Shown here: piece after piece, positions 11,117 to 60,109 of the stretch
Numbering within the stretch: position 1 is the stretch's first letter
Layout of the letters: each line of letters starts with the position of its first letter
NCBI GenBank assembly: GCA_018713145.1
Contig: DVFP01000028.1
Coordinates: 1 to 64,000, forward strand
Reading direction: 5' to 3'
Origin: Candidatus Scybalocola faecavium
GTDB lineage: Bacteria; Bacillota; Clostridia; Lachnospirales; Lachnospiraceae
Length of the DNA: 64,000 nucleotides
Made by a program: the position numbers and the translations under genes
The notes under the pieces: generated by a model
What the model saw: only the letters and a program-made list of their open reading frames with translations
Told to the model about the DNA's origin: nothing
The model's database searches: none

Positions 11117-11788
11117 TTATTCCTCTTCCACAGCCTCTTTAATAAACAGCGAAGTAAGGAATACAAATACATAAGCCTGGATCAGGCCATCGAATACGTC
11201 AAAGTACAGACTAAACGGTACCGGCAATCCTACTGGCAGAAGCTCTTTTAAAAGCTCCATAACAACAAATGAGCCCAGGATATTGCCAAATAGACGCATA
11301 CACAAGGACAACGGACGAATGACGATTTCCAGGATGTTCAAAGGAGCAATCACGGGAACGGGCTGTCCAAAAGACTTAAGCCATCCTTTCACACCTTTTT
11401 GATGAATCCCGGAATACTCAATGAGAATGATACTGGCAATAGCCAGTGCCGCTGTCACATTCATATCCTTTGTCGGAGGAGTAAATCCAAGAATACCGAT
11501 CAGGTTTGATGCGCCAATATAAAGAGCAACGGTGATCAGGTATGGAACATAGCGCTTGCCATTTTTACCGACAGTACCCTCAAAAAAGTTCTGAAGGAAG
11601 GCAATTCCTGACTCTAAAATCAGCTGCTTTTTACTGACATTTTCCACCCGCAGATTTCTTACAAGAATAATCGACAGCAAGGTAAAAACTGCCATGATGA
11701 TCCATGTCACCACTACAGACTCATATACCGGTATTCCGTCTCCAATAGGAATGGTAAATACAGTATGGACTTCAAGGGCATCCATCAA
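11117..11788 (-). CDS. atpB: F0F1 ATP synthase subunit a
   Basis: Membrane protein with PLSLCMRLFGNILGSFVVM motif; exact start (TTG 11788 or ATG 11785) uncertain. Confidence 0.93.
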   Translation of the reverse strand: MMDALEVHTVFTIPIGDGIPVYESVVVTWIIMAVFTLLSIILVRNLRVENVSKKQLILESGIAFLQNFFEGTVGKNGKRYVPYLITVALYIGASNLIGILGFTPPTKDMNVTAALAIASIILIEYSGIHQKGVKGWLKSFGQPVPVIAPLNILEIVIRPLSLCMRLFGNILGSFVVMELLKELLPVGLPVPFSLYFDVFDGLIQAYVFVFLTSLFIKEAVEEE

Positions 11789-11822
11789 GTCATTTGCAAA
11801 TTCTTCCGTATCGAATTCCTCC

Positions 11823-12038
11823 TTTCCTTATTATTGCCGTGCTTTCCACGGCATAAAGGTATCCCCTTGCGGGATTTCCTTATTATTGCCGTGCTTTCCA
11901 CGGCATAAAGGTATCCCCTTGCGGGATTTCCTTATTACCGCCGTGCTTTCCACGGCATAAAGGTATCCCCTTGCGGGATTTCCTTATTACCGCCGTGCTT
12001 TCCACGGCATAAAGGTATCCCCTTGCGGGATTTCCTTA
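11823..12038 (-). repeat. Four tandem 52-bp repeats (plus a partial fifth) in the atpB 5' leader
   Basis: TTTCCTTATTAYYGCCGTGCTTTCCACGGCATAAAGGTATCCCCTTGCGGGA starts at 11823, 11875, 11927, 11979; each unit contains the GCCGTG/CACGGC and TCCC/GGGA inverted repeats. Confidence 0.95.
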
Positions 12039-12097
12039 ATTTCATTCGTCATTTTACTACTTTTATTTTTATTTGAAAAATGATAAAATATTATGGT

Positions 12098-12120
12098 TGA
12101 TATAGCATTTTGTTATATCA
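12098..12120. promoter_or_regulatory. Candidate LysR-type operator
   Basis: Perfect inverted repeat TGATATA-N9-TATATCA in the divergent atpB/lysR intergenic region. Confidence 0.5.
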
Positions 12121-12178
12121 CTATCCATTTTGCACAAAAATAGACTTTAACATTATATATAAGAAGGAGTTTTGTCAA

Positions 12179-13081
12179 ATGTCGGCAAATTTTGAATACT
12201 ATAAAATCTTTTATTATGTTGCCAAGTGTAAAAATCTGACGCAGGCTGCCGATGCCCTTATGTCCAGCCAGCCGGCCATTACCCGAAGTATTAAAAATCT
12301 GGAAAACGAGCTGGGCTGTCGGCTTTTTGTCCGCTCCAGCCACGGAGTATCACTGACAAAGGAAGGGGAATTGCTCTATAAACATGTTACCCCGGCCTGC
12401 GAACTTTTATTTAAAGGAGAGGAAGATTTAAATACGGTCCTTGGCCTGAAGGAAGGACAGCTTTACATCGGCGCCACTGAAACTGCGCTGCACTGCTATC
12501 TTTTGGACAAACTGGAAAAGTTCCATCATCTATATCCCGGCGTCCATATTAAAATCAGCAATCAGACCACCCCGACCACTTTCCATGATTTTAAATCAGG
12601 AAAAATCGACCTGGCTCTTGTAACCACCCCCTGCAACTATTCGGAACCTTATCATCTTACACCGGTTAAAACCTTTAATGATGTATTAGTGGGGAACCGG
12701 GAATATGCCTCAATGGCACGGCAAACATGGCATCTGGCGGATCTGGCCAAATATCCTCTTGTGTCCCTTAGCCGGGATACGATGAGTTACCAATTTATCC
12801 AAAAATTTTATGCCGCCAATCAGGTGCCTTTAAAGCTGGATATTGAACTGGCCTCTGCCCATCTGATCATGCCGGTCATCCTTCACGGACTGGGCATCGG
12901 CTTTATCCCTGAGGAAATGGCTCGCCATGCCCTGGACGACGGAGATCTTGTCCAGATCCATCTTTATGAAACGATCCCGCCGCGGCAGATCTGCTATATC
13001 CGGGATGCCAGCCGCAGCATGAACGCAGCGACACGAAAGCTCATTGAGCTGATGCCGCCGGAGCCGGAGCTTGAGCTATAA
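12179..13081 (+). CDS. LysR family transcriptional regulator
   Basis: N-terminal HTH MSANFEYYKIFYYVAKCKNLTQAADALMSSQPAITRSIKNLENELGCRLF; GGAG ribosome site upstream of this ATG rather than the ORF-track start. Confidence 0.92.
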   Translation: MSANFEYYKIFYYVAKCKNLTQAADALMSSQPAITRSIKNLENELGCRLFVRSSHGVSLTKEGELLYKHVTPACELLFKGEEDLNTVLGLKEGQLYIGATETALHCYLLDKLEKFHHLYPGVHIKISNQTTPTTFHDFKSGKIDLALVTTPCNYSEPYHLTPVKTFNDVLVGNREYASMARQTWHLADLAKYPLVSLSRDTMSYQFIQKFYAANQVPLKLDIELASAHLIMPVILHGLGIGFIPEEMARHALDDGDLVQIHLYETIPPRQICYIRDASRSMNAATRKLIELMPPEPELEL

Positions 13082-45745: not shown

Positions 45746-46255
45746 TTATTTTCTATGACCTATAATTTCTGCGTTTTTTAAAGTTCCCACCACTCTGCAC
45801 GGATTTCCGCAGCCACAGGAACCTGGTGGCATATCTGAAACCACAACGCTTCCGGATCCGATAACACACCCATCTCCAATGCAGACTCCACCGCAGATCA
45901 TCACATTTGTTCCAATCTTACATCCATTTCCAATATATACTGCTTTCTGTGCAAACCCTTGAGTCAAATCCATCATCTCTGTACTGATGGTAACATTGGC
46001 TCCAAAATCGCAATCATCGCCAATCATCACATCGGTTTTATCCATGACAGAAAAATTATTTCCGGCATGAAAATTTTTTCCTATAACTGTGTTGGATCCA
46101 AATTCAAAGTATACACTGCCGTCTAGTTGACAGCCCAGCCCCAGTTTATTGACAATTCGTTCCAGAATTGCCCGGCGTTTATCATTTTCATCTAAATAGG
46201 TCTGATTATAATCAAATGCAAGATTATATGTTTTTTCCCGTATTTCATTACTCAT
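45746..46255 (-). CDS. Left-handed beta-helix (hexapeptide repeat) acyltransferase
   Basis: Hexapeptide repeats IGDDCDFGANVTI, IGNGCKIGTNVMICGGVCIGDGCVIGSGSVV. Confidence 0.9.
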   Translation of the reverse strand: MSNEIREKTYNLAFDYNQTYLDENDKRRAILERIVNKLGLGCQLDGSVYFEFGSNTVIGKNFHAGNNFSVMDKTDVMIGDDCDFGANVTISTEMMDLTQGFAQKAVYIGNGCKIGTNVMICGGVCIGDGCVIGSGSVVVSDMPPGSCGCGNPCRVVGTLKNAEIIGHRK

Positions 46256-46292: not shown

Positions 46293-47423
46293 TTAAACAT
46301 AGATCACTTTTCCTGTTTCAGAGGATTCTACTGCGGCTTCCATTAACTCCAGAACCCTTAAGGCATGTTCCTGAGTAACAATCTGCTTTGCATTTCCTTC
46401 AATGGTATCTACCAGATTACTGTACAGCTCATTATTATCAAATACTACCTCTGGCAGAGGCTGAGAAATCAGGGATTGATCATTTCTCGGCGCCATAGTC
46501 TTTGTTAAACCTGCGCCAGCAAGAATAGGCTTTGCATCCTTATCTTCCCAAGAGGTCAAACATTTCATTTCTCCCCGGCACATCCAGTCATAGATCACTG
46601 CGCTTCCCTGATCTCCCGCCACATACCATAAGGGAAGGGCGATAAAATTACAAGTTCCTACTTCAACCACAACATCTAAACCACTTTTAAAAGAAAGATA
46701 TATTGTAAATCCATCGTCCACCTGGTCATTTGTTACATGGAGCAGCTTGCAGTATATGTGATCCACCGGTTCAGAGATCATGGCCAGGAGCCTGTCTAAA
46801 AGGTGAACGCCCCAGTCCAGCATCATACCTCCGCCATATTGCTTCTTGCTCCTCCAGTCTCCCGGTATTCCCCTTGAGCCGTGAACTCTGCTTTCAATAC
46901 GAAAAACATTTCCCAGCTGTTTTTCTTCAAAGATTTTCTTAACAATCCGATAGTCTTTATCCCACCGTCTGTTTTGCCTGGGATAGAAAATTTTCCCTGT
47001 TCTGGCAGAAACCTCCATGACATCTTTCATATCTTTACTGTTCATCATTACCGGCTTTTCACAAAGAACATGCTTACCGGCCTCCATGGCCTGTATACTC
47101 ATATCTTTATGAAGATGGTTTGGGGTTGCGATCAGAACAATATCCACCTTAGGATCTGACAAAATTTCCTCATAGCTGGAAAAGGTGTGAAACCCCCGTT
47201 CTCTTGCCCAATCCATCCTTGATTCATCAATATCATAAACTCCGGCCAGTTCAAGCTTTTTACTAATATCTGTATCCTTTTCATAATCCAGACAAATATT
47301 AGGATCCTGATCCGCACTGGTATCCGCTCCCCAGACCGCATTTCCACTGCCGCTTCCTATAGCTATAGCATGTCCGCCGCCCATTCCGCCGCAGCCTACA
47401 ATAGCAATCCTTTTCATTCTCAA
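46293..47423 (-). CDS. Gfo/Idh/MocA family oxidoreductase
   Basis: RIAIVGCGGMGGGHA Rossmann start, GKHVLCEKPVMM. Confidence 0.94.
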   Translation of the reverse strand: MRMKRIAIVGCGGMGGGHAIAIGSGSGNAVWGADTSADQDPNICLDYEKDTDISKKLELAGVYDIDESRMDWARERGFHTFSSYEEILSDPKVDIVLIATPNHLHKDMSIQAMEAGKHVLCEKPVMMNSKDMKDVMEVSARTGKIFYPRQNRRWDKDYRIVKKIFEEKQLGNVFRIESRVHGSRGIPGDWRSKKQYGGGMMLDWGVHLLDRLLAMISEPVDHIYCKLLHVTNDQVDDGFTIYLSFKSGLDVVVEVGTCNFIALPLWYVAGDQGSAVIYDWMCRGEMKCLTSWEDKDAKPILAGAGLTKTMAPRNDQSLISQPLPEVVFDNNELYSNLVDTIEGNAKQIVTQEHALRVLELMEAAVESSETGKVIYV

Positions 47424-47439: not shown

Positions 47440-48408
47440 TTAAAGCTTTTTCAGGATATTTTTATTTAAGGCAACATAATGGGCCAGCTGCTGGGTACAT
47501 GGAACATTGGAATAAAAATGATGTCCCTCAAATTCACTGGAAATATATCCGTTATAGCCATACTCTACAAACTTAGAAATCAGTTCCTCATAAGGGATAC
47601 ACGGATCATGTTCATCATTATCCAGATAATAAAACTTTCCATGAATATAGAAAACACAATCCATAAGATCTTTAAATTGTTCAATCTTTGCGGGATGGTT
47701 GAATTTTTCTCTCATTTCCTCAGCGTAATGTTTCTCAATTTCAGAAAAATCACCGTTCATAATCTCATCCAGAGGTACATTTTCATCATGCATTTTTACA
47801 ATTTCTTTAAGTTTTTCCGGCCTGCATCCAAACTCAACCGCCTGTCTCAGATAAAGCTCATGAGGATGATACTGGAAGATGGAAAAATCAGGAACAAATC
47901 CTAAATATCCTTTTCCCTCATTTTTCATGATCTTAAAATATTCCTGCCAAACAGGGACTTCAGGATGATGAGGCCAGTGCATTTCAATAGTAAGCTTCAT
48001 ATCCAGGGCTTTGCAGTAAGGGATCATTTTCCGGAAAATTTCCGGAGAAATGGCATGCTGGGTACGTACCATAGGAAAGCCTGCTTTCTTTGCATAGATC
48101 AAATCATTCAGCGTGCACTGGATAATCTCTGCTTCTGTCAGATCCCGGTCTGTTCTTGTTCCCATATCAATATATGCAGACCAGCAAACCGGTTCAAGCT
48201 CATATTTTGCAAGAAGGCCTTTAAAATTATACAGCCACTCATCCGTTGGGAACGGATAATCCGGAACCATCTGTGCTGCCACAATCTCTACACCGGTGTA
48301 GCCCATGTCATGGACTGCCTTCAGACAGCCCTCCAGGTCCAAAACGCCATGGATAAATTCCGTAGATAAACTGTATAAGGTCACACCGATTCTAATATCA
48401 TTTTTCAT
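47440..48408 (-). CDS. TIM-barrel sugar phosphate isomerase/epimerase-like protein; candidate C-glycoside deglycosidase alpha subunit
   Basis: AP-endonuclease-2-type TIM barrel (IGVTLYSLSTEFIHGVLDLEGCLKAVHDMGYTGVEIV; LTIEMHWPHHP); adjacent to a DUF6379-like gene. Confidence 0.82.
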   Translation of the reverse strand: MKNDIRIGVTLYSLSTEFIHGVLDLEGCLKAVHDMGYTGVEIVAAQMVPDYPFPTDEWLYNFKGLLAKYELEPVCWSAYIDMGTRTDRDLTEAEIIQCTLNDLIYAKKAGFPMVRTQHAISPEIFRKMIPYCKALDMKLTIEMHWPHHPEVPVWQEYFKIMKNEGKGYLGFVPDFSIFQYHPHELYLRQAVEFGCRPEKLKEIVKMHDENVPLDEIMNGDFSEIEKHYAEEMREKFNHPAKIEQFKDLMDCVFYIHGKFYYLDNDEHDPCIPYEELISKFVEYGYNGYISSEFEGHHFYSNVPCTQQLAHYVALNKNILKKL

Positions 48409-48422
48409 CTTTATTGTCCTCC

Positions 48423-48839
48423 TTAAACAGCCATGATTTCTTTTGTACGGTCACTAATCAGGGTAAGATATTGTCCAAAGTATCCTGTATAGGGTACACG
48501 ATGTTTCATATAAACTCTTAACTGGTGCTTGCCCTTGCTGATGCCTCCCATTTGAATGACCCGGATTCTGGCCGGCTTCATTACATACCAGTATTCTCTG
48601 AACAGCTCCGGCAGCTCCTCCATGGTAAACTCTTTTCCATTCAGGCAGAAATACACATAAGTGTTATCCAGCTCTTTTCCGTCAATTTCAAATTTCAGCT
48701 CTTCAATATTGCTCACATAGCAGCCTCTGTAAGACGGATAACGGATCTCAAATTCATATCCTGTAATGACTCCATTAACAATCTCAATTTTTATGGGCTT
48801 GTCACAGATCATAATCTCATTATAAGCAACAAAATCCAT
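48423..48839 (-). CDS. DUF6379-like protein; candidate C-glycoside deglycosidase beta subunit
   Basis: GVITGYEFEIRYPSYRGCYVSNIEELKFEIDGKEL...LNGKEFTMEELPELFREYWYVMKPARIRVIQMGGISKGKHQLRVYMKHRVPY. Confidence 0.78.
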   Translation of the reverse strand: MDFVAYNEIMICDKPIKIEIVNGVITGYEFEIRYPSYRGCYVSNIEELKFEIDGKELDNTYVYFCLNGKEFTMEELPELFREYWYVMKPARIRVIQMGGISKGKHQLRVYMKHRVPYTGYFGQYLTLISDRTKEIMAV

Positions 48840-48853
48840 AATTCACTCCCCCA

Positions 48854-49969
48854 TCAATCTTCAAGAAAAATTTCTTTACCTGTTTCAGCAGATTTGTAAA
48901 TTGCTTCCAGAATCTGTGTAACAATAAACGCCTGCTCCGGTTTTACCAAAGGCTCTGTGTCATTGATGATGGCATTCAGCCACTGTCTTGCCTCAATATG
49001 CCCCGGCTCTCCATGCGTCCCTTCAAAATATGCAACATTACCCGCTGGAGAAAGGCGCTCCTCTGTGAGTTCACCATGATGTCCCCGGTTAAAGATCAGT
49101 TCATCTACCGGATAGCTCATACCGGAATGAACCTCTGCCCCAGCTAAAGTACCGCACAGAGTTGTGGATGCCTCTCTGGAATCCAGCATATTTAAAGCCC
49201 ATGATGCTTCCAGATTGATCAATGATCCATCCTCCATCTTTATAAAGCCCATAGCAGAATCTTCTACTTCATATGTATCCGGATCCCAAGGTCCAAACAT
49301 ATTTCCCTCTGTTGCCTGAGGAAGATGTCCCAGCTTATAAAATACCTGTCCGGATACACTCTTGGGCTTATAATTATCCATACACCACAGTGTAATATCC
49401 AGAGCGTGTGTTCCTATATCAATCAGAGGACCGCCTCCCTGCTTGGATTTATCCGGAAAAACCCCCCATGTTGGCACTGCCCGGCGGCGAACTGCATGAG
49501 CTTTCCCATAATAAATCTCACCTAATTCACCAGCTTCGCAGCTTTTCTTAAGCATCTGGATTTCCGGACGGAAACGATTCTGATAACCGATAGTAAATTT
49601 CCTGCCGGATTTTTTCCATGCATCAATCATCTTTCTTGCATCTGCTGTACAGTGTGCCATAGGCTTTTCACACAGAACATTTTTACCAGCTTCAAAAGCA
49701 GCCACTGTAATCTCACAGTGAGCCACATTGGGGGTAAGGACATGAACCACATCAATTTCAGGATCTTTCAGTAATTCCTTATAATCTGTATAAACCTTCG
49801 CATTCTCTGTGCCATACTCTTTGGCTGCTTTTGCGGCTCTTTCTTCGATCAGATCGCAAAATGCAACCATTTCACAAAGATCATTGCAGTCCTTTAACGC
49901 AGGCATATGTTTATTGTTGGCAATACCGCCGCATCCGATAAGTCCTACCTGTAATTTTCCGTTTTTCAT
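48854..49969 (-). CDS. Gfo/Idh/MocA family oxidoreductase
   Basis: QVGLIGCGGIANNKHMPAL, GKNVLCEKPMAH. Confidence 0.94.
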   Translation of the reverse strand: MKNGKLQVGLIGCGGIANNKHMPALKDCNDLCEMVAFCDLIEERAAKAAKEYGTENAKVYTDYKELLKDPEIDVVHVLTPNVAHCEITVAAFEAGKNVLCEKPMAHCTADARKMIDAWKKSGRKFTIGYQNRFRPEIQMLKKSCEAGELGEIYYGKAHAVRRRAVPTWGVFPDKSKQGGGPLIDIGTHALDITLWCMDNYKPKSVSGQVFYKLGHLPQATEGNMFGPWDPDTYEVEDSAMGFIKMEDGSLINLEASWALNMLDSREASTTLCGTLAGAEVHSGMSYPVDELIFNRGHHGELTEERLSPAGNVAYFEGTHGEPGHIEARQWLNAIINDTEPLVKPEQAFIVTQILEAIYKSAETGKEIFLED

Positions 49970-50001: not shown

Positions 50002-51102
50002 TTATTCAAAAACGATTTCTTTTCCTGTTTTGGCAGATTGGTAAACAGCTTCAATGATCTGAGTAACAACCATAGCCTGCTCCGGCTTAATAAACACTTC
50101 CGTATCATTCCGGATCGCATCTACAAAACGGCGGATTTCCTCTTTACCAGGAGCTTCCGATTTAATGGAAAATGGAGGCATCGGATCGCTTGTATCAATA
50201 CACTGTACATAAGGCTTGTTATGAGCCATACCATTGACTCTGACCTGATGCTCGCCGACCATATCCAGCCCGGCTTTTGTTCCGCAAAGGGTTGTTTTCA
50301 TATCTTCACCCAGCATATTTAAACGCCATGAAGCTTCAATAAAAATAGTAGCTCCATTTTTCATAGTCACCAGGGCAAAACCGCTGTCTTCAACTTTAAA
50401 GTCTTTTTCATCCCAGCCGCCCCAGATACATCCTTCCGGATTGTCCTTCATCTTATCATAAAGGTTTGCACGGACACTTTTTACATCGTAGTTATCCATA
50501 GCCCATAAAGTCAGATCAAGGGCATGAGGCACCCCGTCAATGAAAACGCCGCCTCCGTTATTGCCGTTTAAGTATTCGCCCCATGCAGGAACTCCGGCAT
50601 ACCGGGTAGCATTGGCTTTTGCATAATAAATATCTCCCAGTTCGCCTTTTTCGCAGATAGATTTTACCATCAGCGCTTCCGGGCGATACCGCCACTGATA
50701 ACCGATCGTCAATTTTTTGTTCATCTTTTTGGCAGTAGCGATCATTTTCTCACAGTCGGCCTTGGTGGTTGCCATAGGCTTTTCACATAATACATGCTTC
50801 CCTGCTTCCAAAGCCGCGCAAGTAATCTGGCAATGAGTTGGATTTGGCGTTGCAATATGGACAATATCAATAGATTCATCTTTTAACATTTCTGTGTAAT
50901 CGTCATACACCTTAACGCCCTCTAACTGAAACAAAGATACAAATCTCTCCGCTTTACTGATCTCCTTATCGCACAGGGCCACAAGCTTAACATCCTCTGT
51001 GGCCAGAATGGAGGGTACATGCTTATCCTCGCCGATCCATCCGCAACCGATTAATGCTACATTTAAAATATCTTTCATCCTATTTTCTCCTTTACATATC
51101 AC
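50002..51102 (-). CDS. Gfo/Idh/MocA family oxidoreductase
   Basis: NVALIGCGWIGEDKHVPSI, GKHVLCEKPMATT. Confidence 0.94.
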   Translation of the reverse strand: MICKGENRMKDILNVALIGCGWIGEDKHVPSILATEDVKLVALCDKEISKAERFVSLFQLEGVKVYDDYTEMLKDESIDIVHIATPNPTHCQITCAALEAGKHVLCEKPMATTKADCEKMIATAKKMNKKLTIGYQWRYRPEALMVKSICEKGELGDIYYAKANATRYAGVPAWGEYLNGNNGGGVFIDGVPHALDLTLWAMDNYDVKSVRANLYDKMKDNPEGCIWGGWDEKDFKVEDSGFALVTMKNGATIFIEASWRLNMLGEDMKTTLCGTKAGLDMVGEHQVRVNGMAHNKPYVQCIDTSDPMPPFSIKSEAPGKEEIRRFVDAIRNDTEVFIKPEQAMVVTQIIEAVYQSAKTGKEIVFE

Positions 51103-51108
51103 TTCAAA

Positions 51109-51903
51109 TTATGAGATCCTCAGTTTTTCCTCCCGGTACAAATCCGGCAAAAGACTGCTTAAATATTCCATTTCCAGACAATTATGTTCAAACATTCCCC
51201 GAAGTTCTTCTTCTCTTACAGACTGTCCTGGAGCCAACATTTTTATGATTCTTCCGCCCATTAAGGTATATCCTTTCCAGAAGCGGCTCCGCATCACGAT
51301 TCCTCTCCCATTAGGGTGCGGATAAATAAAATGTACGACAATTGTACTCATAGGTACATCCACTTCCCCGGCGTCTCTTGGTTTAGAAAGAGCTGTTCCT
51401 CCATCCGCCTGCAAAAGTCCGTATTTTTTCATTTCATCTGGTGATAATCCAAATTCTTCCGGATGATCCCTAACAGGAACCGCAAAATAAATCTCTTCAA
51501 TCTTTCCCCCGATTTCTTCAGAAGAATATGTAAAAAAGCATGACAGATGCTTATGGGGGCACCAGATCTTATATCGGCTTGTACTGTCTCCCTGAAGCCT
51601 CCACTCATTCCACCACTGGTACATCTCAAAGGAAACTTCCGGCAGTTCATGATATGCCGCAATATACCCGGTGCCATCCTTTAACCGGATATACCCGTTT
51701 TCACAGGTAATCCGCTCCGGATGAAGCACATCTGTAATATTATCTGCCAGGATCACATCCGATTCTTTCATCTTACTCCCATAGTCTAAAATATCCTGCT
51801 GTTCTTTTGGAAGTACCGGGAAAGGCCGGTTGTAATATTTAGCATAAGGCTGCTTTTGCTCTTCTGGAGAAAGCGCCGCATATTTTTCATAAAGCTGCTC
51901 CAC
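51109..51903 (-). CDS. DAPG hydrolase (PhlG) / phloretin hydrolase-like protein
   Basis: PYAKYYNRPFP, GYIRLKDGTGYIAAYHELPEVSFEMYQWWNEWR, YKIWCPHKHLSCFF, C-terminal FEHNCLEME (HxxxE). Confidence 0.72.
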   Translation of the reverse strand: MEQLYEKYAALSPEEQKQPYAKYYNRPFPVLPKEQQDILDYGSKMKESDVILADNITDVLHPERITCENGYIRLKDGTGYIAAYHELPEVSFEMYQWWNEWRLQGDSTSRYKIWCPHKHLSCFFTYSSEEIGGKIEEIYFAVPVRDHPEEFGLSPDEMKKYGLLQADGGTALSKPRDAGEVDVPMSTIVVHFIYPHPNGRGIVMRSRFWKGYTLMGGRIIKMLAPGQSVREEELRGMFEHNCLEMEYLSSLLPDLYREEKLRIS

Positions 51904-51923: not shown

Positions 51924-52682
51924 TTAAACAAACAGCGCCTGAGCCGCTTTAAGTCCTTCTTCTTTCGGCTTATGGGTGAAATATTCTAATCCGATATATT
52001 CCTCATAGCCCATTTCTTTCAGCGCTTCAAAAATATGTTTATAATCCAACTCACCGGTTGTAATCTCATGTCTTCCCGGGCATCCGGCCACATGAATATG
52101 ACCAATCTGATCCAAATGCTTTTTAATACTTTCAATAATAAAACCATTGGAAATCTGCTGATGATAAATATCAAACAGAATCTTTACATTGGGCTCATGA
52201 ATTTGCAGGATCACATCAAAAGATTCTTCTGTATCCCAAAGATTATAGCCCTGATGATCCACTTTAATATTCAACGGTTCAATGATGATCATCATATCTT
52301 CTGCCGCTGCCAAAGGCGCCGCTTTTTTCACTGTGTCCATAAAAATCTTCCGATGCTCTTCATGGGAAATCTCAGGAACTTCCCAGCCAGCCTGAACAAT
52401 TATTTTTCGGCATCCGAGACGTTTTGCCGCCTCAACGCTGTCCTTAAAATCCTTTAAATAATCTTCCTGATGGGCCGGATCCCCTGTGCTGTATACAAAC
52501 TTAGCGCAGATGGCCACACAGTCCATATGCAATTCTTCCTGCTTTTTTCGGATGGCATCCAAATCTTTATCCCACCAAGTCCAAAATTCATAGGAGGAAA
52601 ATCCAAGTTCATAAAGCTTATCCATAGCGGTAAGTATATCCATTCCTTCAAAAACCGCATCTGTGCAAACATCGTATTTCAT
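51924..52682 (-). CDS. TIM-barrel sugar phosphate isomerase/epimerase (hydroxypyruvate isomerase-like)
   Basis: IIIEPLNIKVDHQGYNLWDTEESFDVI, VKILFDIYHQQISNG. Confidence 0.85.
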   Translation of the reverse strand: MKYDVCTDAVFEGMDILTAMDKLYELGFSSYEFWTWWDKDLDAIRKKQEELHMDCVAICAKFVYSTGDPAHQEDYLKDFKDSVEAAKRLGCRKIIVQAGWEVPEISHEEHRKIFMDTVKKAAPLAAAEDMMIIIEPLNIKVDHQGYNLWDTEESFDVILQIHEPNVKILFDIYHQQISNGFIIESIKKHLDQIGHIHVAGCPGRHEITTGELDYKHIFEALKEMGYEEYIGLEYFTHKPKEEGLKAAQALFV

Positions 52683-52696
52683 ATCTATATCCTTTC

Positions 52697-53659
52697 TCAG
52701 GCAGCAGTATCTGCTCCCTCATATGCCTTTTTAATACTTTTTTTCGTATTTCTTTCAATGGCCAATCGTGTAATAAACAGGGCCAGAATCAGAACGATGC
52801 CACGGATCATCTGATTGAAATTAGAAGTGCCTCCCAGGAAGGTTAATCCGTTGTCCAGCACAAAGTAAGTCAAAACGCCGATCAGCATCTTATATACCGC
52901 GGTCCCGGAGCCACCGGCCACAGGAATACTGGCTAAAAACATACACAGCATTACCCGCATTTCCATGCCGCTGCCCATGGTATTGGACGCGCCGCCCAGA
53001 CGGACCATAACAAAGACGCCTGCAATGCCAGCTAAAATACCGGAAAGGGTAAATGCCCATATTTTTGTTTTTAATACAGACACGCCGGTATACTCGATCG
53101 CCTGCTCATTTTCACCAATAGCTCTTGTATATTTTCCAAACGGTGTAAAACGGAAAATGTAAGCAAATACCGCAAGAACAACAATTAAAATAGGAATCTT
53201 TACGCCCAGTCCGTCAAAAAGAGACATGACGTCATTGCAGTGATATACCTTAGCCTGAAGCCACCAGCTTACAACAGCCCGGACAGCCAAAAGCATAGCC
53301 AAAGTACACATAAAGGATGGAACTTTAAACTTAGCAACAACAACACCATTGACCAGCCCTACTGCGGCTCCGAAAAGGATCGCTACCGGAAACATGGCCC
53401 ACACGCCAATATTTAAAGCTGCCCATGCGCCGGCAGTTCCCGCAAGGCCGATCACAGAACCGCAGGTAATATCCGTACCGCCCATGGCTACTACAAAGAT
53501 CATGCCCATGCCCGCTAAAAAGTAGGGTACCGACTGATTGACAATATTCATCAGATTGTTCGCTGAGAAAATCTGTCCTCTGGTAAGTATACCGAAAAGG
53601 ATCGTAATAAACAGGAAAATGATCACTGGCATAACAGAACCAACATTTATCTTTTTCAT
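52697..53659 (-). CDS. Sugar-type ABC transporter permease (RbsC family)
   Basis: GMGMIFVVAMGGTDITCGSVIGLAGTAGAW, multi-TM. Confidence 0.92.
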   Translation of the reverse strand: MKKINVGSVMPVIIFLFITILFGILTRGQIFSANNLMNIVNQSVPYFLAGMGMIFVVAMGGTDITCGSVIGLAGTAGAWAALNIGVWAMFPVAILFGAAVGLVNGVVVAKFKVPSFMCTLAMLLAVRAVVSWWLQAKVYHCNDVMSLFDGLGVKIPILIVVLAVFAYIFRFTPFGKYTRAIGENEQAIEYTGVSVLKTKIWAFTLSGILAGIAGVFVMVRLGGASNTMGSGMEMRVMLCMFLASIPVAGGSGTAVYKMLIGVLTYFVLDNGLTFLGGTSNFNQMIRGIVLILALFITRLAIERNTKKSIKKAYEGADTAA

Positions 53660-55170
53660 CAGATCATCACCTCCATGATTTTTTCTGTAGTAAAGCCATC
53701 GGTTCTGCTTAAAACAGACGCGATCTTTCCGTCTTTCATAACAAGCAGCCGGTCTGACATACCCATAACTTCCGGAAGCTCATCGGAAATCAGCAAAATT
53801 GCTCTTTTCTTCTCCTTTGCTTCATTTTCCAGGACTTGATAAATATAGGATTTAACGCCTACATCCACACCGCGTGTCGGGCAGTCAAGAATAATAAAAT
53901 CCAGTGATTTTAACAGCCATCGGCTCAAATTCACTTTTTGTTTATTTCCTCCGGACATACTGTTAACCGGAGCATCAATCGATTCACACTTAATTTCAAA
54001 AGCTTCCTTGGCGTTTTGAGCCATTTTCCTCTCTCTTTTTGGATTTACAAAACCTAATGGACCGGCCAGCATTTTTAATGAAGGCACCTGGAGATTTAAG
54101 GCCACCGATGCCTGCAGCATCAATCCCTCAGAATCCCGGTCTTTAGAAAGATAAGCACCATGGTTATTTATCAGATCTCTGGATTTTTTTACCACCTTTT
54201 CACCTTTTGATGTATGAATAACAATCTGGCCTTTCCGTATCTTTTCTTTAGCAAATAATGTGCGTCCCAAATCGTGGATACCGCCGTCAGACAATCCGCA
54301 TACTCCAAGGATCTCCCCGGCATGAAGCTCAAAAGAAACATCTTTTAATTTATCGGTACACAAATCTTTTACAGAAAGAACAACCTTTTCATCATGGCTT
54401 TCCTCCTGATCCTCCCGGTAATAGTGCTGATTCATTTCTCTGCCGATCATCAGCCGCTTCATTTCATCCAAATCAAAATCTTTATGCTGGATTGTCTTAA
54501 TCACATGTCCGTCTCTAAGAACGGTAATACTGTCACAAAGCTCTAACGTCTCCTCCAAGTCGTGGGAGATCATTACGATGGAATGGCCAGCTTTGACAAA
54601 ATCATCCATGATTTTATATAAGATTGATCGGTTATCATGAGATAAAGCCTGAGTCACTTCATCTAAAACAAGGATTTCCGGATCCTGAATCAAAGCTTTC
54701 GTCAGCTCCACTAATTTTCTTTGCTCAATGGAAAGATCCTGAGCAAGGGCATTTAAGGGAATATTTCCAAAACCATACCGTTTCAGGGATTCCTCCGCAG
54801 CTTTATTCATGGCCTTTGTATCCAAAAATCCGCCGTGAGTATACGGCTGAGTGTGGCCCATAAACATATTGATAGCCACAGGAAGAGTTCCTAAAACGCC
54901 CAGCTCCTGCACCACCATGGCAACTCTTTTCTGATTCGCCTCAAGAGGACTTTTAGGGGCATATTCTTCCCCGTTTAAATACATCTTTCCGCTGGTAGGC
55001 GTAAGGATACCGCAAAGCTGAGATGTAAATGTAGATTTTCCAGAGCCGTTTTCTCCGATCAGCCCACGTATCTCTCCGCGGCGCAGTTGAAAGTCAATAT
55101 CACAATTTGCGTGAGTCACGCCAAACCATTTATTAATTTTTTCAGTTTTTAAAATAATATCTTCTGTCAT
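53659..55170 (-). CDS. Sugar-type ABC transporter ATPase (RbsA family, two NBDs)
   Basis: GENGSGKSTFTSQLCGI, MSGGNKQKVNLSRWL. Confidence 0.95.
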   Translation of the reverse strand: MTEDIILKTEKINKWFGVTHANCDIDFQLRRGEIRGLIGENGSGKSTFTSQLCGILTPTSGKMYLNGEEYAPKSPLEANQKRVAMVVQELGVLGTLPVAINMFMGHTQPYTHGGFLDTKAMNKAAEESLKRYGFGNIPLNALAQDLSIEQRKLVELTKALIQDPEILVLDEVTQALSHDNRSILYKIMDDFVKAGHSIVMISHDLEETLELCDSITVLRDGHVIKTIQHKDFDLDEMKRLMIGREMNQHYYREDQEESHDEKVVLSVKDLCTDKLKDVSFELHAGEILGVCGLSDGGIHDLGRTLFAKEKIRKGQIVIHTSKGEKVVKKSRDLINNHGAYLSKDRDSEGLMLQASVALNLQVPSLKMLAGPLGFVNPKRERKMAQNAKEAFEIKCESIDAPVNSMSGGNKQKVNLSRWLLKSLDFIILDCPTRGVDVGVKSYIYQVLENEAKEKKRAILLISDELPEVMGMSDRLLVMKDGKIASVLSRTDGFTTEKIMEVMI

Positions 55171-55188
55171 TATGGGATACTCCTTTCA

Positions 55189-56181
55189 CTATTTGGACAC
55201 TCCTTTATAATTGAGTTTTGAAAGAATACCGCACAGAACAACAATCACGCCCAGCATAATATTCTGCCCTGTACCAGACGGAACGCCAAGTAATGTAAGG
55301 CAGTTAAACAAGCCGGCGATCAACAGCGATCCAAGCAGTACCCCTGCGGGAACACCAATGACGGATTCAAAGGATGTGGCCAGCAGGAAAACGGCCAAAG
55401 ACTGAAAGATCTGAGACACAGAGTTCATTCCGGTAACAACGGTAAGATGTCCGTTAAAGCTAATGTAGCACATAGCTGCGGTTCCAATAAAAAGTCCGCC
55501 GATAATGGTTCCTAAAAGCATAGTTTTATTTTTCTTTACGCCCATGGCTTCCGATACAGAAGGATTACAACCGATCGCACGGATATTCATACCAATGGCC
55601 GTCCGATTATACAGAAAATAGCACACAACAAAACCGCAAAGCCAGATAATAATACTTCCGGGAATTAAACCGGCGCCCCGGTAAGCTTCCATACGAAGTC
55701 CTGAAATCCCGTTGGATGAAAGGTATTCTGAATAAAGTCCCATAATCGCTTCCCAGATCAAAGCCATACCAAGTCCGGCAATCCAGGATGGTATTTTCAA
55801 TTTCAATCCTAAATATACAGTAACAAATTCGCAAACCGCTGCGCTGATCAGACAGCCTAAGATCAGTCCTACATAACCCAAGTTAGCGTAACATGCCAGA
55901 TAAGCGCCAATATTTCCGGTCAGAATCACAACAGCGCCCACCGAAAGATCTACGATGCCGCTGGTCATTATAAAGACCATTCCATATCCTACAAGTCCCG
56001 GATAGACTGCATGGGATATGGTTGAAATTATATTGGTTTTTGTAAAGAAACGGCCTCCGGTCAAAATATTGGCCAGCACAAACAGTAAGATGTACCCGGC
56101 AAAAAAGATAATCACTTTCCGCGCTTTTGTGCTTTTCACATGACTGCCTGTTTCTTTTCCCAAAGCTCCAAACACAAGCAT
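55189..56181 (-). CDS. Sugar-type ABC transporter permease (RbsC family)
   Basis: GYGMVFIMTSGIVDLSVGAVVILTGNIGAYLA; likely initiates downstream of the ORF-track start. Confidence 0.9.
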   Translation of the reverse strand: MLVFGALGKETGSHVKSTKARKVIIFFAGYILLFVLANILTGGRFFTKTNIISTISHAVYPGLVGYGMVFIMTSGIVDLSVGAVVILTGNIGAYLACYANLGYVGLILGCLISAAVCEFVTVYLGLKLKIPSWIAGLGMALIWEAIMGLYSEYLSSNGISGLRMEAYRGAGLIPGSIIIWLCGFVVCYFLYNRTAIGMNIRAIGCNPSVSEAMGVKKNKTMLLGTIIGGLFIGTAAMCYISFNGHLTVVTGMNSVSQIFQSLAVFLLATSFESVIGVPAGVLLGSLLIAGLFNCLTLLGVPSGTGQNIMLGVIVVLCGILSKLNYKGVSK

Positions 56182-56242: not shown

Positions 56243-57445
56243 TTATTTCAAACCAGCGGCTGACATTTCTTCGTCAGAAATCATTCCGGCATCATACTTT
56301 GCCTGAAGACGGCTTTCCAAAGAATAGGTTTTTACAACATTTTCTTCAAAGTCTTCCAGAGACATACCCAGCATTGCCTGAATCTCGTCCGCCATATAAA
56401 TGTTGTCTTCTGCGATATATTTTGTAAACAGATCCTGCTGTTCTACCGGAATCGGGAAAGCCGGAACCATGTCTACTAACGGTGCGGAACCATCTTCATC
56501 CGTCATTGGGGTGCCTTCCAAAGCGTTGATCAACAGAACTGATGAATATGTACCGCTGACAAGGAAATCACCGATCAAAAAGTCTACATAGTCTTCCTCT
56601 TTCATAGACTGAAGAATCGTCTGGTCAAAGTCCGCAGTAATGATCTTCATATTATGGTCATCATATTTTCTTAAAGTTTCTAAAGCTGCTGTACCAAAAG
56701 TAGATGCTCCTGTCGCCATAATACAGTCGGCGTCCGGATTGGCAAGATACATATCCTCCGCCTGAGTGACAGCCTGATTGGAATCATCGGTATGCTGTTC
56801 TCCAAGAACCATACCCCCGGCCTCTTCAAAAACATCTCTAAAGCCTTCGATTCTCGGTGTCCCGGAAGCATCGCCGATACCGGAAGCCAGGATAAACGCG
56901 GTTTCATATCCTTGATCCAGAGCAAATTCGGCCATCTGAACGCCATAAGAATAGTTATCCGGTGTAACGCCTCCTTTGTACATAGTGTAATTTTCTTCCA
57001 ATCTTTCGATAATCGCCTTATCTGTAGGAACTTTATCAGACAATGTAAACGGAACCTGGGCATCTTCACAGATCTGTGCAACGGTTTCATATAAGGAATC
57101 ATTCGGAATCCAAAGAACCAGGCCGTCAACGCCGGAAGCAATCATATTTTCCACATCCGTAACTAACTGATCCAGCGAGCCATTGTTGCAAACACTCTGT
57201 GCAGTATAACCGCAGGATTCAATGGCATGTTTCGTATTATTTGCCAATGTATCCAGGGCATAATCGCCGGAAGCAAAGTAATTGTATCCGATAACCCCTT
57301 TACTTTCCCCTCCGGTCTCTGATGTACTGTTTTGAGCGGATGCTGATGAATCTGAAGTTCCTCCCCCGGAAGTTGTTTCAACACATGCGCCTAATGAAAC
57401 CACCATAGACATTGCCAGTAAAATTGATACAGCCTTTTTGTTCAT
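56243..57445 (-). CDS. Sugar-type ABC transporter substrate-binding lipoprotein
   Basis: Lipobox VVSLGACVE; periplasmic-binding fold (VLWIPNDSLYETVAQICEDAQVPFTLSD). Confidence 0.9.
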   Translation of the reverse strand: MNKKAVSILLAMSMVVSLGACVETTSGGGTSDSSASAQNSTSETGGESKGVIGYNYFASGDYALDTLANNTKHAIESCGYTAQSVCNNGSLDQLVTDVENMIASGVDGLVLWIPNDSLYETVAQICEDAQVPFTLSDKVPTDKAIIERLEENYTMYKGGVTPDNYSYGVQMAEFALDQGYETAFILASGIGDASGTPRIEGFRDVFEEAGGMVLGEQHTDDSNQAVTQAEDMYLANPDADCIMATGASTFGTAALETLRKYDDHNMKIITADFDQTILQSMKEEDYVDFLIGDFLVSGTYSSVLLINALEGTPMTDEDGSAPLVDMVPAFPIPVEQQDLFTKYIAEDNIYMADEIQAMLGMSLEDFEENVVKTYSLESRLQAKYDAGMISDEEMSAAGLK

Positions 57446-57688: not shown

Positions 57689-60109
57689 TTACATTTGATG
57701 GATAATATGGATATATTGAAATTCCTGAGGTTCTAAATCCGCTTCAAATTCCAGCAGTTCATTTTCTACCATCACTGTCCGGATCTGCATTTCCGGCTGA
57801 CTGGCCGCTTTAATGTATTCAATATCCTCTTTTGTAAGAGACATCATTTCCTCCAGATCCTGCCAGCACTTAAGAGCATTTCCGTGGTCCTCATTGACCT
57901 TATGGAACCGAATGATCCATTTGCCGTTTTGAACCCCTTCAATGTGGTATCGGATTCGTAAATTAAAGCTGTCTGAAAAATACTGAGAAACATTTTTAAC
58001 TGAAAGCTCATCTTCTCTCAGCTGATAATAGTAATAGTTTGGATGCTTGCAATTATGGCATAATATTGTAAAATGACCATGCCCATCTGTAGTCACAATG
58101 GTATTTTCAGTTTTTTCCAGCATGACTCTTTTCAAATTTTTCAAAAAAGACATCGCCCAAAAGGCTGGTTTGCGAATACTATCCCTGCTGAGCAGTCCTC
58201 CGCCTCCATTCATGATCCTGCGGGAATCTTTATAATCGCCAATCAGATCCGATCCAGGCCAGTATGCAGCATATTCCACCTGATCAAGGCAATCCAGCAT
58301 ATTTTTGATGATATAAGCCCCTTTAAACACAGTATCATTGAGAAGATTCCTGTTGCTTACCGTAAAATTCCATTCTGTCACAAAAAGCTTTACACTTCCC
58401 ATTCCGCTCAATTCCATATATTCCCGGGTCTTTTTAATCTGATGGAGGATATAATCCGGATCGTATAACGGAAAAAAGGCTTTCACATCATCTTTGTGTA
58501 CCGGCATCACCGGATAGCAATAAATCGAAATAAAATCCGGAACCGTACCATAATTTCTCCACATCTGGAGCAATTCCTGCAGAGAATGACCTTTCTGCAT
58601 CAGGGCAAAGCCTCCTCCCCCGACCATCGTTGCACCGGAGAGTTCCCGAAAAGCATTTTTTGTTGTGTCGAAATAGGAAAAATACTGTTCCGGTGACATT
58701 GAAGGATCATACCATTCCTCAATAATCCATCGGGACATTTCCTCCTCGCCATACAAAGCGTAATAATGATGCAAAAAATCTACAACAAATTCCCGATGAT
58801 CTTCTTCACCAGAAAAAAAATTATCCCTTTTTGTGTCTATAATATAATTATCTGTATTACTCAAAATAATATCCGGCTTAAACCCTAACTCAATAAACGG
58901 ATGAATTCCATTAGACACTAAAAAGTCAATAATATAATCCAATTTTGAAAAGTTATATTTTTTCCCATTTTCCTCCCGTTCCTGGACCATAAATAATTCC
59001 GGTGCCCAAATATCCCAAAATCTTGCATATTTTATTCCGATCTGATTTTTAAACAACAGAATCTGTTCCTGAATCTCGGTCAGCAAAAGATCCTTTGCCC
59101 GTCCCACATTTAAAACATCTTTCCATTGGAGTCCATAAGTATTTTGTCTGCGGCTGTCAATATTTAGCAAAACTTCTTCCCAATTACTTTCACTTTTATC
59201 TTGAGGATGGTTTAAAACATACTGCTTTACCTTTTCTTCAAGCATATGCTGCTGTTCCTTAAATTGAACGTCATCTTCCTGAGATAATACTCTGTTTTTT
59301 TGCCGGAACTGGACCGGTGTCATATCATATTTCTTTTTAATAGCCTTTCCTAAAGCTGCTGATCCTGCAAAGCCATTATCTAAAGCAATATCCAGTATGG
59401 TTTTATTAGTATTGATAAGCTCTTCCTCTGCATTTTCCAGACGGAGATCATTTAAATATTGCAAAAAAGAGCATCCCAGCTGTTTTTTAATATATTTGCT
59501 CACATATTCCTGGGTCAGGTGAAGATATTCAGACAAACCATGAAGGCTGATCTCACCATTATAGTTCGTATTCACATATTGGATGATCCGGTTCAGCCTT
59601 TTTTCATCCTGGCTCTTTTTTAAATCCTGATACTCAGGTTCATATTCAAAATTTCTTATAAGGACATAAAGAAATCGATACAGTATACTAAGAAGCGTTA
59701 AATAATTTGCACCAGCTCCATACTGGAGCTGGCTGATCAAACGATTCAAAATGCTTTCCAGTCTGCCATATGCCTGCCCCCCTTCCATTGTTGAGTTACA
59801 GGCTATAAAAATACTATCTTTTCCCATAATACGGCAGATTTTTCCAAGATTTATCCGAATTTCAAGAAACAGAGCGTCTTCTCCATACATAGCAACATGA
59901 AACTTGTCTCCAGGTTTTATATACGCAAAATCGCTTTCCCTTAAAATATATTTTTCGTCATTTTCTTTTAATTCTACCGTGCCTCCCAAAACAAACAGGA
60001 ATTTCGCATCATAGGTGACACCGGCATATCTTAAATAACGATTAACCATTGTCAGTTGAAAAACATCATCGATCTTCATGTGATGCATATTCAAGTCCAT
60101 ATTTTTCAT
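57689..60109 (-). CDS. AraC-family regulator fused to a GH39 (beta-xylosidase)-like domain
   Basis: Cupin N-terminus, AraC HTH (YLHLTQEYVSKYIKKQLGCSFLQYLNDLRLENAEEELINTNKTILDIALDNGF), C-terminal (beta/alpha)8 with VTEWNFTVSNRN. Confidence 0.87.
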   Translation of the reverse strand: MKNMDLNMHHMKIDDVFQLTMVNRYLRYAGVTYDAKFLFVLGGTVELKENDEKYILRESDFAYIKPGDKFHVAMYGEDALFLEIRINLGKICRIMGKDSIFIACNSTMEGGQAYGRLESILNRLISQLQYGAGANYLTLLSILYRFLYVLIRNFEYEPEYQDLKKSQDEKRLNRIIQYVNTNYNGEISLHGLSEYLHLTQEYVSKYIKKQLGCSFLQYLNDLRLENAEEELINTNKTILDIALDNGFAGSAALGKAIKKKYDMTPVQFRQKNRVLSQEDDVQFKEQQHMLEEKVKQYVLNHPQDKSESNWEEVLLNIDSRRQNTYGLQWKDVLNVGRAKDLLLTEIQEQILLFKNQIGIKYARFWDIWAPELFMVQEREENGKKYNFSKLDYIIDFLVSNGIHPFIELGFKPDIILSNTDNYIIDTKRDNFFSGEEDHREFVVDFLHHYYALYGEEEMSRWIIEEWYDPSMSPEQYFSYFDTTKNAFRELSGATMVGGGGFALMQKGHSLQELLQMWRNYGTVPDFISIYCYPVMPVHKDDVKAFFPLYDPDYILHQIKKTREYMELSGMGSVKLFVTEWNFTVSNRNLLNDTVFKGAYIIKNMLDCLDQVEYAAYWPGSDLIGDYKDSRRIMNGGGGLLSRDSIRKPAFWAMSFLKNLKRVMLEKTENTIVTTDGHGHFTILCHNCKHPNYYYYQLREDELSVKNVSQYFSDSFNLRIRYHIEGVQNGKWIIRFHKVNEDHGNALKCWQDLEEMMSLTKEDIEYIKAASQPEMQIRTVMVENELLEFEADLEPQEFQYIHIIHQM

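Follow-up and report, generated by a model that had tools for sequence, protein, structure and literature searches.

The 64,000-nucleotide stretch of Candidatus Scybalocola faecavium DNA analysed here (the window) contains, judged by its gene content, a dgp-type operon for C-glycoside cleavage, and a C-C hydrolase gene of the DAPG/phloretin hydrolase family (PF18089) is located inside it. The operon was assigned to the dgp type because DgpA-type oxidoreductases and both the alpha and the beta subunit of a C-glycoside deglycosidase (CGD) are encoded in the same run of genes. The operon probably imports a C-glycosyl polyphenol, removes the sugar and hydrolyses the acylphloroglucinol aglycone to phloroglucinol, which would then be degraded by the same genome. 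The genes of the operon and its adjoining regulator are the following.

45746..46255, minus strand: hexapeptide-repeat acyltransferase, closing the co-directional run (PF00132, PF12464)
46293..47423, minus strand: third Gfo/Idh/MocA oxidoreductase, DgpA2-like, annotated start uncertain (3e18, E 7.4e-99; 9m37 DgpA2, E 2.1e-56)
47440..48408, minus strand: CGD alpha subunit (PDB 9m3a_A, E 4.5e-57; 7bvr_A, E 1.7e-55; alignment)
48423..48839, minus strand: CGD beta subunit, CGDB (PF19906, E 1.2e-31; 9m3a_B, E 1.2e-27; 7bvr_B, DgpB)
48854..49969, minus strand: DgpA near-orthologue, C-glycoside 3''-oxidoreductase (PDB 7xr9 DgpA, E 2.5e-177)
50002..51102, minus strand: DgpA1-like Gfo/Idh/MocA glycoside 3-oxidoreductase (PDB 9m3d_B, E 1.1e-98; DgpA 7xr9, E 7e-96)
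51109..51903, minus strand: short-loop variant of the DAPG/phloretin hydrolase family (PF18089), a C-C hydrolase of 264 aa (Pfam, PDB, alignments)
51924..52682, minus strand: TIM-barrel sugar isomerase/epimerase, hydroxypyruvate isomerase- or 3-keto-glucoside epimerase-like (PF01261; 3ngf, 6wn6)
52697..56181, minus strand: whole ABC sugar importer (sequence; same gene set in loci L068 and L139)
52697-53659 and 55189-56181, minus strand: importer permeases (sequence)
53659-55170, minus strand: importer tandem ATPase (sequence)
56243..57445, minus strand: sugar-binding lipoprotein of the importer (PF13407, E 1.9e-19)
57689..60109, minus strand: AraC-type regulator fused to a GH39-like domain (PF12833, PF01229, PF07883)

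The hydrolase gene lies within a run of 12 co-directional genes separated by gaps of -1 to 61 nt; it ends 6 nt before a DgpA-like gene and starts 20 nt after the sugar isomerase gene. A previous sequence-only reading had placed it in a sugar operon with oxidoreductases and a sugar importer. These genes are all present, but the generic label has to be replaced by that of a C-glycoside cleavage operon with DgpA and both deglycosidase subunits. In the alignment, the catalytic residues of the CGD alpha subunit are kept, with H144 corresponding to H143 and E294 to E301 of PuCGD, and Y37 of the beta subunit aligns with Tyr39 (DgpB; PuCGD numbering). The roles of alpha His143 and Glu301 and of beta Tyr39 have been demonstrated by others (PMC8563793, PMC10628242). 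The TIM-barrel protein scored under the cut-off of TIGR03234, and it is probable that it handles the released keto-sugar. The AraC-GH39 regulator gene is situated 243 nt upstream of the importer genes and has homologues beside CGD genes in other genomes. Such fusions adjoin many CGD gene sets (window 57689-60109; L068:2-2437; L086:8874-11360; L139:13399-15825; and others), and their GH39 part may sense the glycoside.

The open reading frame that the sequence-only reading placed at 51109-51903 is real and lies on the minus strand. It has a GTG start preceded at 7 nt by a GAGGTG ribosome-binding-like site, and the plus strand of the same interval is rich in stops, indicating that the minus strand is the coding one. 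The proposal of a PhlG-type enzyme was borne out by the Pfam DAPG_hydrolase search, in which the protein matched PF18089 with an E value of 1.2e-39 (136.6 bits, cut-off 22.7), and its only relatives by sequence in the PDB were PhlG (3hwp, E 1.4e-13) and the phloretin hydrolases (5xey/5xe5, 1e-10). All motifs quoted for this layout (KYYNRP, DGTGYIA, MYQWWNEWR, YKIW and FEHNCLEME) were found, the last containing the H-x3-E pair as H240-x3-E244. Family membership is thus solid. The score against the PhlG equivalog model (NCBIfam NF047887) was 49.2 bits, far under the cut-off of 600, indicating a family member and not a PhlG orthologue. No related loci were found in a search of the genome contigs, and this hydrolase is the one PF18089 member found in the source genome (assembly 80.7% complete).

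The predicted active-site residues map to the following positions.

51517..51549, minus strand: stretch from H119 to E129, the first pair of predicted Zn ligands (alignments, codon positions)
51331..51333, minus strand: H191, probable catalytic residue, aligned with a conserved His of PhlG (alignments, codon positions)
51172..51186, minus strand: H240-x3-E244, C-terminal predicted Zn ligands (invariant in two smaller alignments; codon positions)

All four Zn-ligand positions (H119, E129, H240 and E244) are kept in the alignment. H119, H240 and E244 fall in conserved columns in 50 family proteins from the sampled genomes and are invariant in two smaller alignments. In 3hwp, the Glu of SEYVG is the aligned counterpart of E129, which by spacing also matches Glu154 (NEYIG) of 5xey. 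The corresponding ligands in PhlG are His129, Glu160, His270 and Glu274 by PDB chain numbering, and this numbering, like the ligand identity in 5xey, agrees with the spacing in the alignment. H191, a probable catalytic residue as judged from the alignments, corresponds to a conserved His of PhlG (His214), and Y111 aligns with a conserved Tyr of PhlG. Members of the family are expected to have a Bet v 1-like fold whose ligands converge on one metal. An AlphaFold model from the single sequence (no alignment as input) reached a pLDDT of 33.8, too low for the structural overlay proposed earlier; preservation of the ligand positions was thus seen at the level of the alignment.

The spacing between H119 and E129 is 10 residues in the window hydrolase versus 31 in PhlG and 5xey, so that about 21 residues are absent between the first two Zn ligands. 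This shortening had escaped the earlier reader. The Pfam match falls into two pieces, probably due to the missing stretch, and the shorter loop may signify a change of substrate. The protein has in common with the phloretin hydrolases (Eubacterium ramulus Phy; Mycobacterium abscessus 5xey/5xe5) the PF18089 domain, the Zn-ligand positions and the conserved His and Tyr, but differs from them in its loop, in low identity and in being encoded with C-glycoside cleavage genes. With the 2,4-diacetylphloroglucinol hydrolase PhlG (3hwp) it shares the family and the ligand pattern but not the location in a DAPG cluster. Where PhlG has Asn132 and Tyr229, the window hydrolase has Cys and Phe.

In the tree of PF18089 proteins, the window hydrolase is placed on a long branch with a clade of intermediate loop length (92/98), and the other short-loop proteins, among them that of L068, form a separate group (99/84). 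The grouping of the window protein with the mid-loop clade led us to reject a single short-loop clade tied to C-glycoside operons. If the tree is right, the separation of the window and L068 proteins implies at least two entries of PF18089 into such operons. E129 and H191, both kept in the window hydrolase, are absent in most mid-loop clade members, and chemistry may therefore have drifted near the window branch. In the mid-loop clade itself (L093:10074-10955; L078:8271-9152 and 11394-12230; L092:2593-3444), neither the Glu that serves as second ligand nor the conserved His seems to be retained, and these proteins may bind metal differently or carry out other chemistry.

Four adjacent genes on another contig of the same genome (C5, L146:9901-13646) are of the types found in the phloroglucinol cluster of C. 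scatologenes.

Contig C5, within L146:9901-13646: phloroglucinol-reductase-like SDR (PDB 5g4k, E 2.4e-152 over the whole length)
Contig C5, within L146:9901-13646: PF04199 cyclase (cyclase-family DPGC)
Contig C5, within L146:9901-13646: 3-hydroxyacyl-CoA dehydrogenase (3HCDH)
Contig C5, within L146:9901-13646: BKACE (single match on C5)

The structure 5g4k is that of a phloroglucinol reductase from Clostridium sp. ATCC BAA-442. BKACE was looked for because it belongs to the published phloroglucinol pathway (PMC10470551), and the same paper cites the structure of the Clostridium sp. ATCC BAA-442 phloroglucinol reductase. The cluster of Clostridium scatologenes (PMC10470551) has its four gene types all represented side by side on C5, with no linkage to the window operon in the assembly. 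From this gene content, the source genome looks able to use or ferment phloroglucinol. A PhlG-type enzyme would be expected to release phloroglucinol from a monoacylphloroglucinol, and the C5 cluster would be the sink for this product. The earlier suggestion of an aglycone-processing step gains support from the C-glycoside cleavage operon and the phloroglucinol-degradation cluster in one genome.

In the taxonomic family, 29 of 397 sampled genomes had PF18089, compared with 5 of 398 over the whole phylum. The CGD beta family PF19906 was present in 12 of the 29 PF18089 genomes versus 23 of the 368 others (odds ratio 10.6, p 6e-7). A phloroglucinol reductase was found in 20 of 31 genomes with PF18089 and in 3 of 43 without it (p 2e-7, in a hand-chosen comparison set with relatedness uncorrected). 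Up to seven or eight PF18089 genes occur per genome in G309 and G230, which suggests several different substrates of the acylphloroglucinol type. In two genera, the PF18089 hydrolase is fused to an N-terminal FAD_binding_2 reductase in proteins of about 815 aa (L072:9426-11867, minus strand; L073:7677-10133, plus strand), and a phloroglucinol reductase gene lies about 1.6 kb from the fusion in the L073 genome (G229:C3). Such a fusion would join two flavonoid steps. In a congener (L067:9522-10072, G067:C6), the PF18089 gene is spread over two overlapping frames and is likely a frameshifted or decayed copy.

The sampled genomes yielded no orthologue of the window hydrolase with more than about 35% full-length identity, and the pairing of hydrolase and operon can therefore not be traced over close relatives. 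A comparable arrangement occurs in another genus (L068), where the order is AraC-GH39, CGD beta, CGD alpha, importer, DgpA, TIM-barrel isomerase and PF18089 hydrolase; the DgpA there is 74% identical, and the PF18089 member is distant from the window hydrolase. Loci L069 and L134, from two species belonging to a third genus, have a PF18089 gene at a distance of 7.6 kb from dgpA and some 9 kb from the CGD genes; regulator and transporter genes occupy the space between. Most CGD operons are without a PF18089 hydrolase. L139, the operon closest in synteny, encodes importer, isomerase, oxidoreductase and CGD but lacks the hydrolase, which therefore looks added to a common core.

The source genome has two further loci with dgpA homologues. 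In a second C-glycoside operon (L086, G000:C30:4000-23900), the ABC importer differs in being of the peptide type, an LVIVD-repeat protein is encoded between the CGD genes, and the dgpA copy (G000:C30:3156-4271) shows one in-frame TAA in the match. At L138 (G000:C33:5000-24900), a dgpA homologue (74%) has no CGD genes nearby; an Oxidored_FMN gene lies some 4.4 kb away on the same, minus strand.

Family assignments, active-site residues, the operon arrangement and the presence of the phloroglucinol cluster are read from the sequence, and from them we infer every reaction, the order of the reactions and the substrate. A plant C-glucoside would be taken up by the operon's importer and its sugar oxidised at C3'' by a DgpA-type enzyme. 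The sugar-aryl C-C bond would then be cleaved by the CGD alpha/beta complex in an Mn-type elimination. The freed acylphloroglucinol aglycone, a phloretin-like dihydrochalcone or related aryl ketone, would be hydrolysed at the ring-acyl C-C bond by the PF18089 enzyme. This step would be Zn-dependent, with the phenol-activated ring leaving as phloroglucinol together with a carboxylic acid. Phloroglucinol would finally be reduced and ring-opened by the C5 cluster through the reductive phloroglucinol pathway. Phloretin is the substrate of phloretin hydrolase (EC 3.7.1.4), which splits it into phloroglucinol and phloretate. A characterised DgpBC-type CGD releases phloretin from 3-keto-nothofagin, at 29-fold less activity than daidzein from 3-keto-puerarin (PMC10628242), and with these two activities the chain is chemically precedented. 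Among natural sources, C-glycosyl dihydrochalcones would need no further enzyme and C-glycosyl flavones would need reductases; C-glycosyl benzophenones are also possible.

The imported compound could instead be a C-glycosyl flavone (isovitexin, orientin or vitexin), whose aglycone would first be reduced and ring-opened by flavone and flavanone reductases encoded elsewhere; the dihydrochalcone so formed would then be the hydrolase substrate, as it is in Eubacterium ramulus. This is possible, and we hold it tentatively. The same step order appears in the published gut flavonoid pathway (PMC8745648, PMC11170127); C-glycosyl flavones are known CGD substrates (PMC8563793), and the reductase fusions in relatives point the same way, but the operon itself has no flavone or flavanone reductase. 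Another acylphloroglucinol aglycone, such as the benzophenone of iriflophenone or maclurin C-glucoside, which would yield phloroglucinol and hydroxybenzoate, is an unlikely substrate. By general chemistry, these compounds carry the acylphloroglucinol unit attacked by PF18089 enzymes, and the shortened loop could shift acyl-chain specificity; we know of no citable family member with a benzophenone substrate.

There is a similarly small chance that the gene is a phloretin hydrolase that came to lie in the operon by accident and acts on unrelated dietary flavonoids. Proximity of PF18089 to CGD genes was rejected as proof of linkage, since 3 genes lay within 10 kb versus 0.94 expected (p 0.07). 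These distance statistics are not significant by themselves, and the L139 operon lacks the hydrolase, both of which would fit an accidental neighbour. Against this, the gaps to the adjoining operon genes are 6 and 20 nt, and in L068, from a second genus, this gene set recurs together with a distant member of PF18089. Embedding inside the operon is a stronger argument for linkage than distance.

We see a slim chance that the short-loop form is adapted to C-glycoside operons and hydrolyses the acyl C-C bond with the C-glucosyl group on the ring, giving two C-C cleavages per phloroglucinol ring in either order, with the window and L068 lineages recruited independently. A strict order with the hydrolase first, converting the intact C-glucoside to C-glucosyl phloroglucinol before DgpA and CGD cleavage, is improbable: the loss of about 21 residues could open the pocket, but the CGD enzymes in the literature act on glycosides of large aglycones. 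It is highly improbable that the hydrolase is no longer aromatic-specific and instead cleaves a beta-dicarbonyl formed from the 3-keto sugar that is released, for although open-chain 3-keto-glucose is a 1,3-dicarbonyl and the gene adjoins a sugar isomerase gene, the aromatic-family active-site residues are kept, most CGD operons lack the hydrolase and PF18089 tracks with phloroglucinol reductase.

The preferred route, deglycosylation followed by aglycone hydrolysis, is made up of enzymes of known kinds. The dgp/dfg C-deglycosylation operons of Dorea strain PUE, Eubacterium cellulosolvens and Catenibacillus encode DgpA-type oxidoreductases and CGD alpha/beta as the window does, but the window operon has a PF18089 C-C hydrolase inside. 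For Catenibacillus, one report lists phloretin hydrolase and DgpBC apart from each other among the features of the genome (PMC11170127). No paper joining a DAPG hydrolase with DgpA or C-deglycosylation was found in the open-access literature searched, which is weak evidence that the combination in one operon is undescribed.

Gut bacteria set how much dietary C-glycoside (from rooibos, citrus, mango or kudzu) becomes aglycone and small phenolic acids. Breakdown of rooibos dihydrochalcones has been proposed to proceed by deglycosylation and then phloretin hydrolase (PMC8745648), a route that rests on steps known in separate organisms. An operon joining both steps, in a genome that probably ferments phloroglucinol, would offer a single-organism route open to direct testing and a marker by which others may be found. 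The arrangement suggests a common C-deglycosylation core to which enzymes specific for the aglycone are added, and such additions may help to predict the substrate of many uncharacterised CGD operons.
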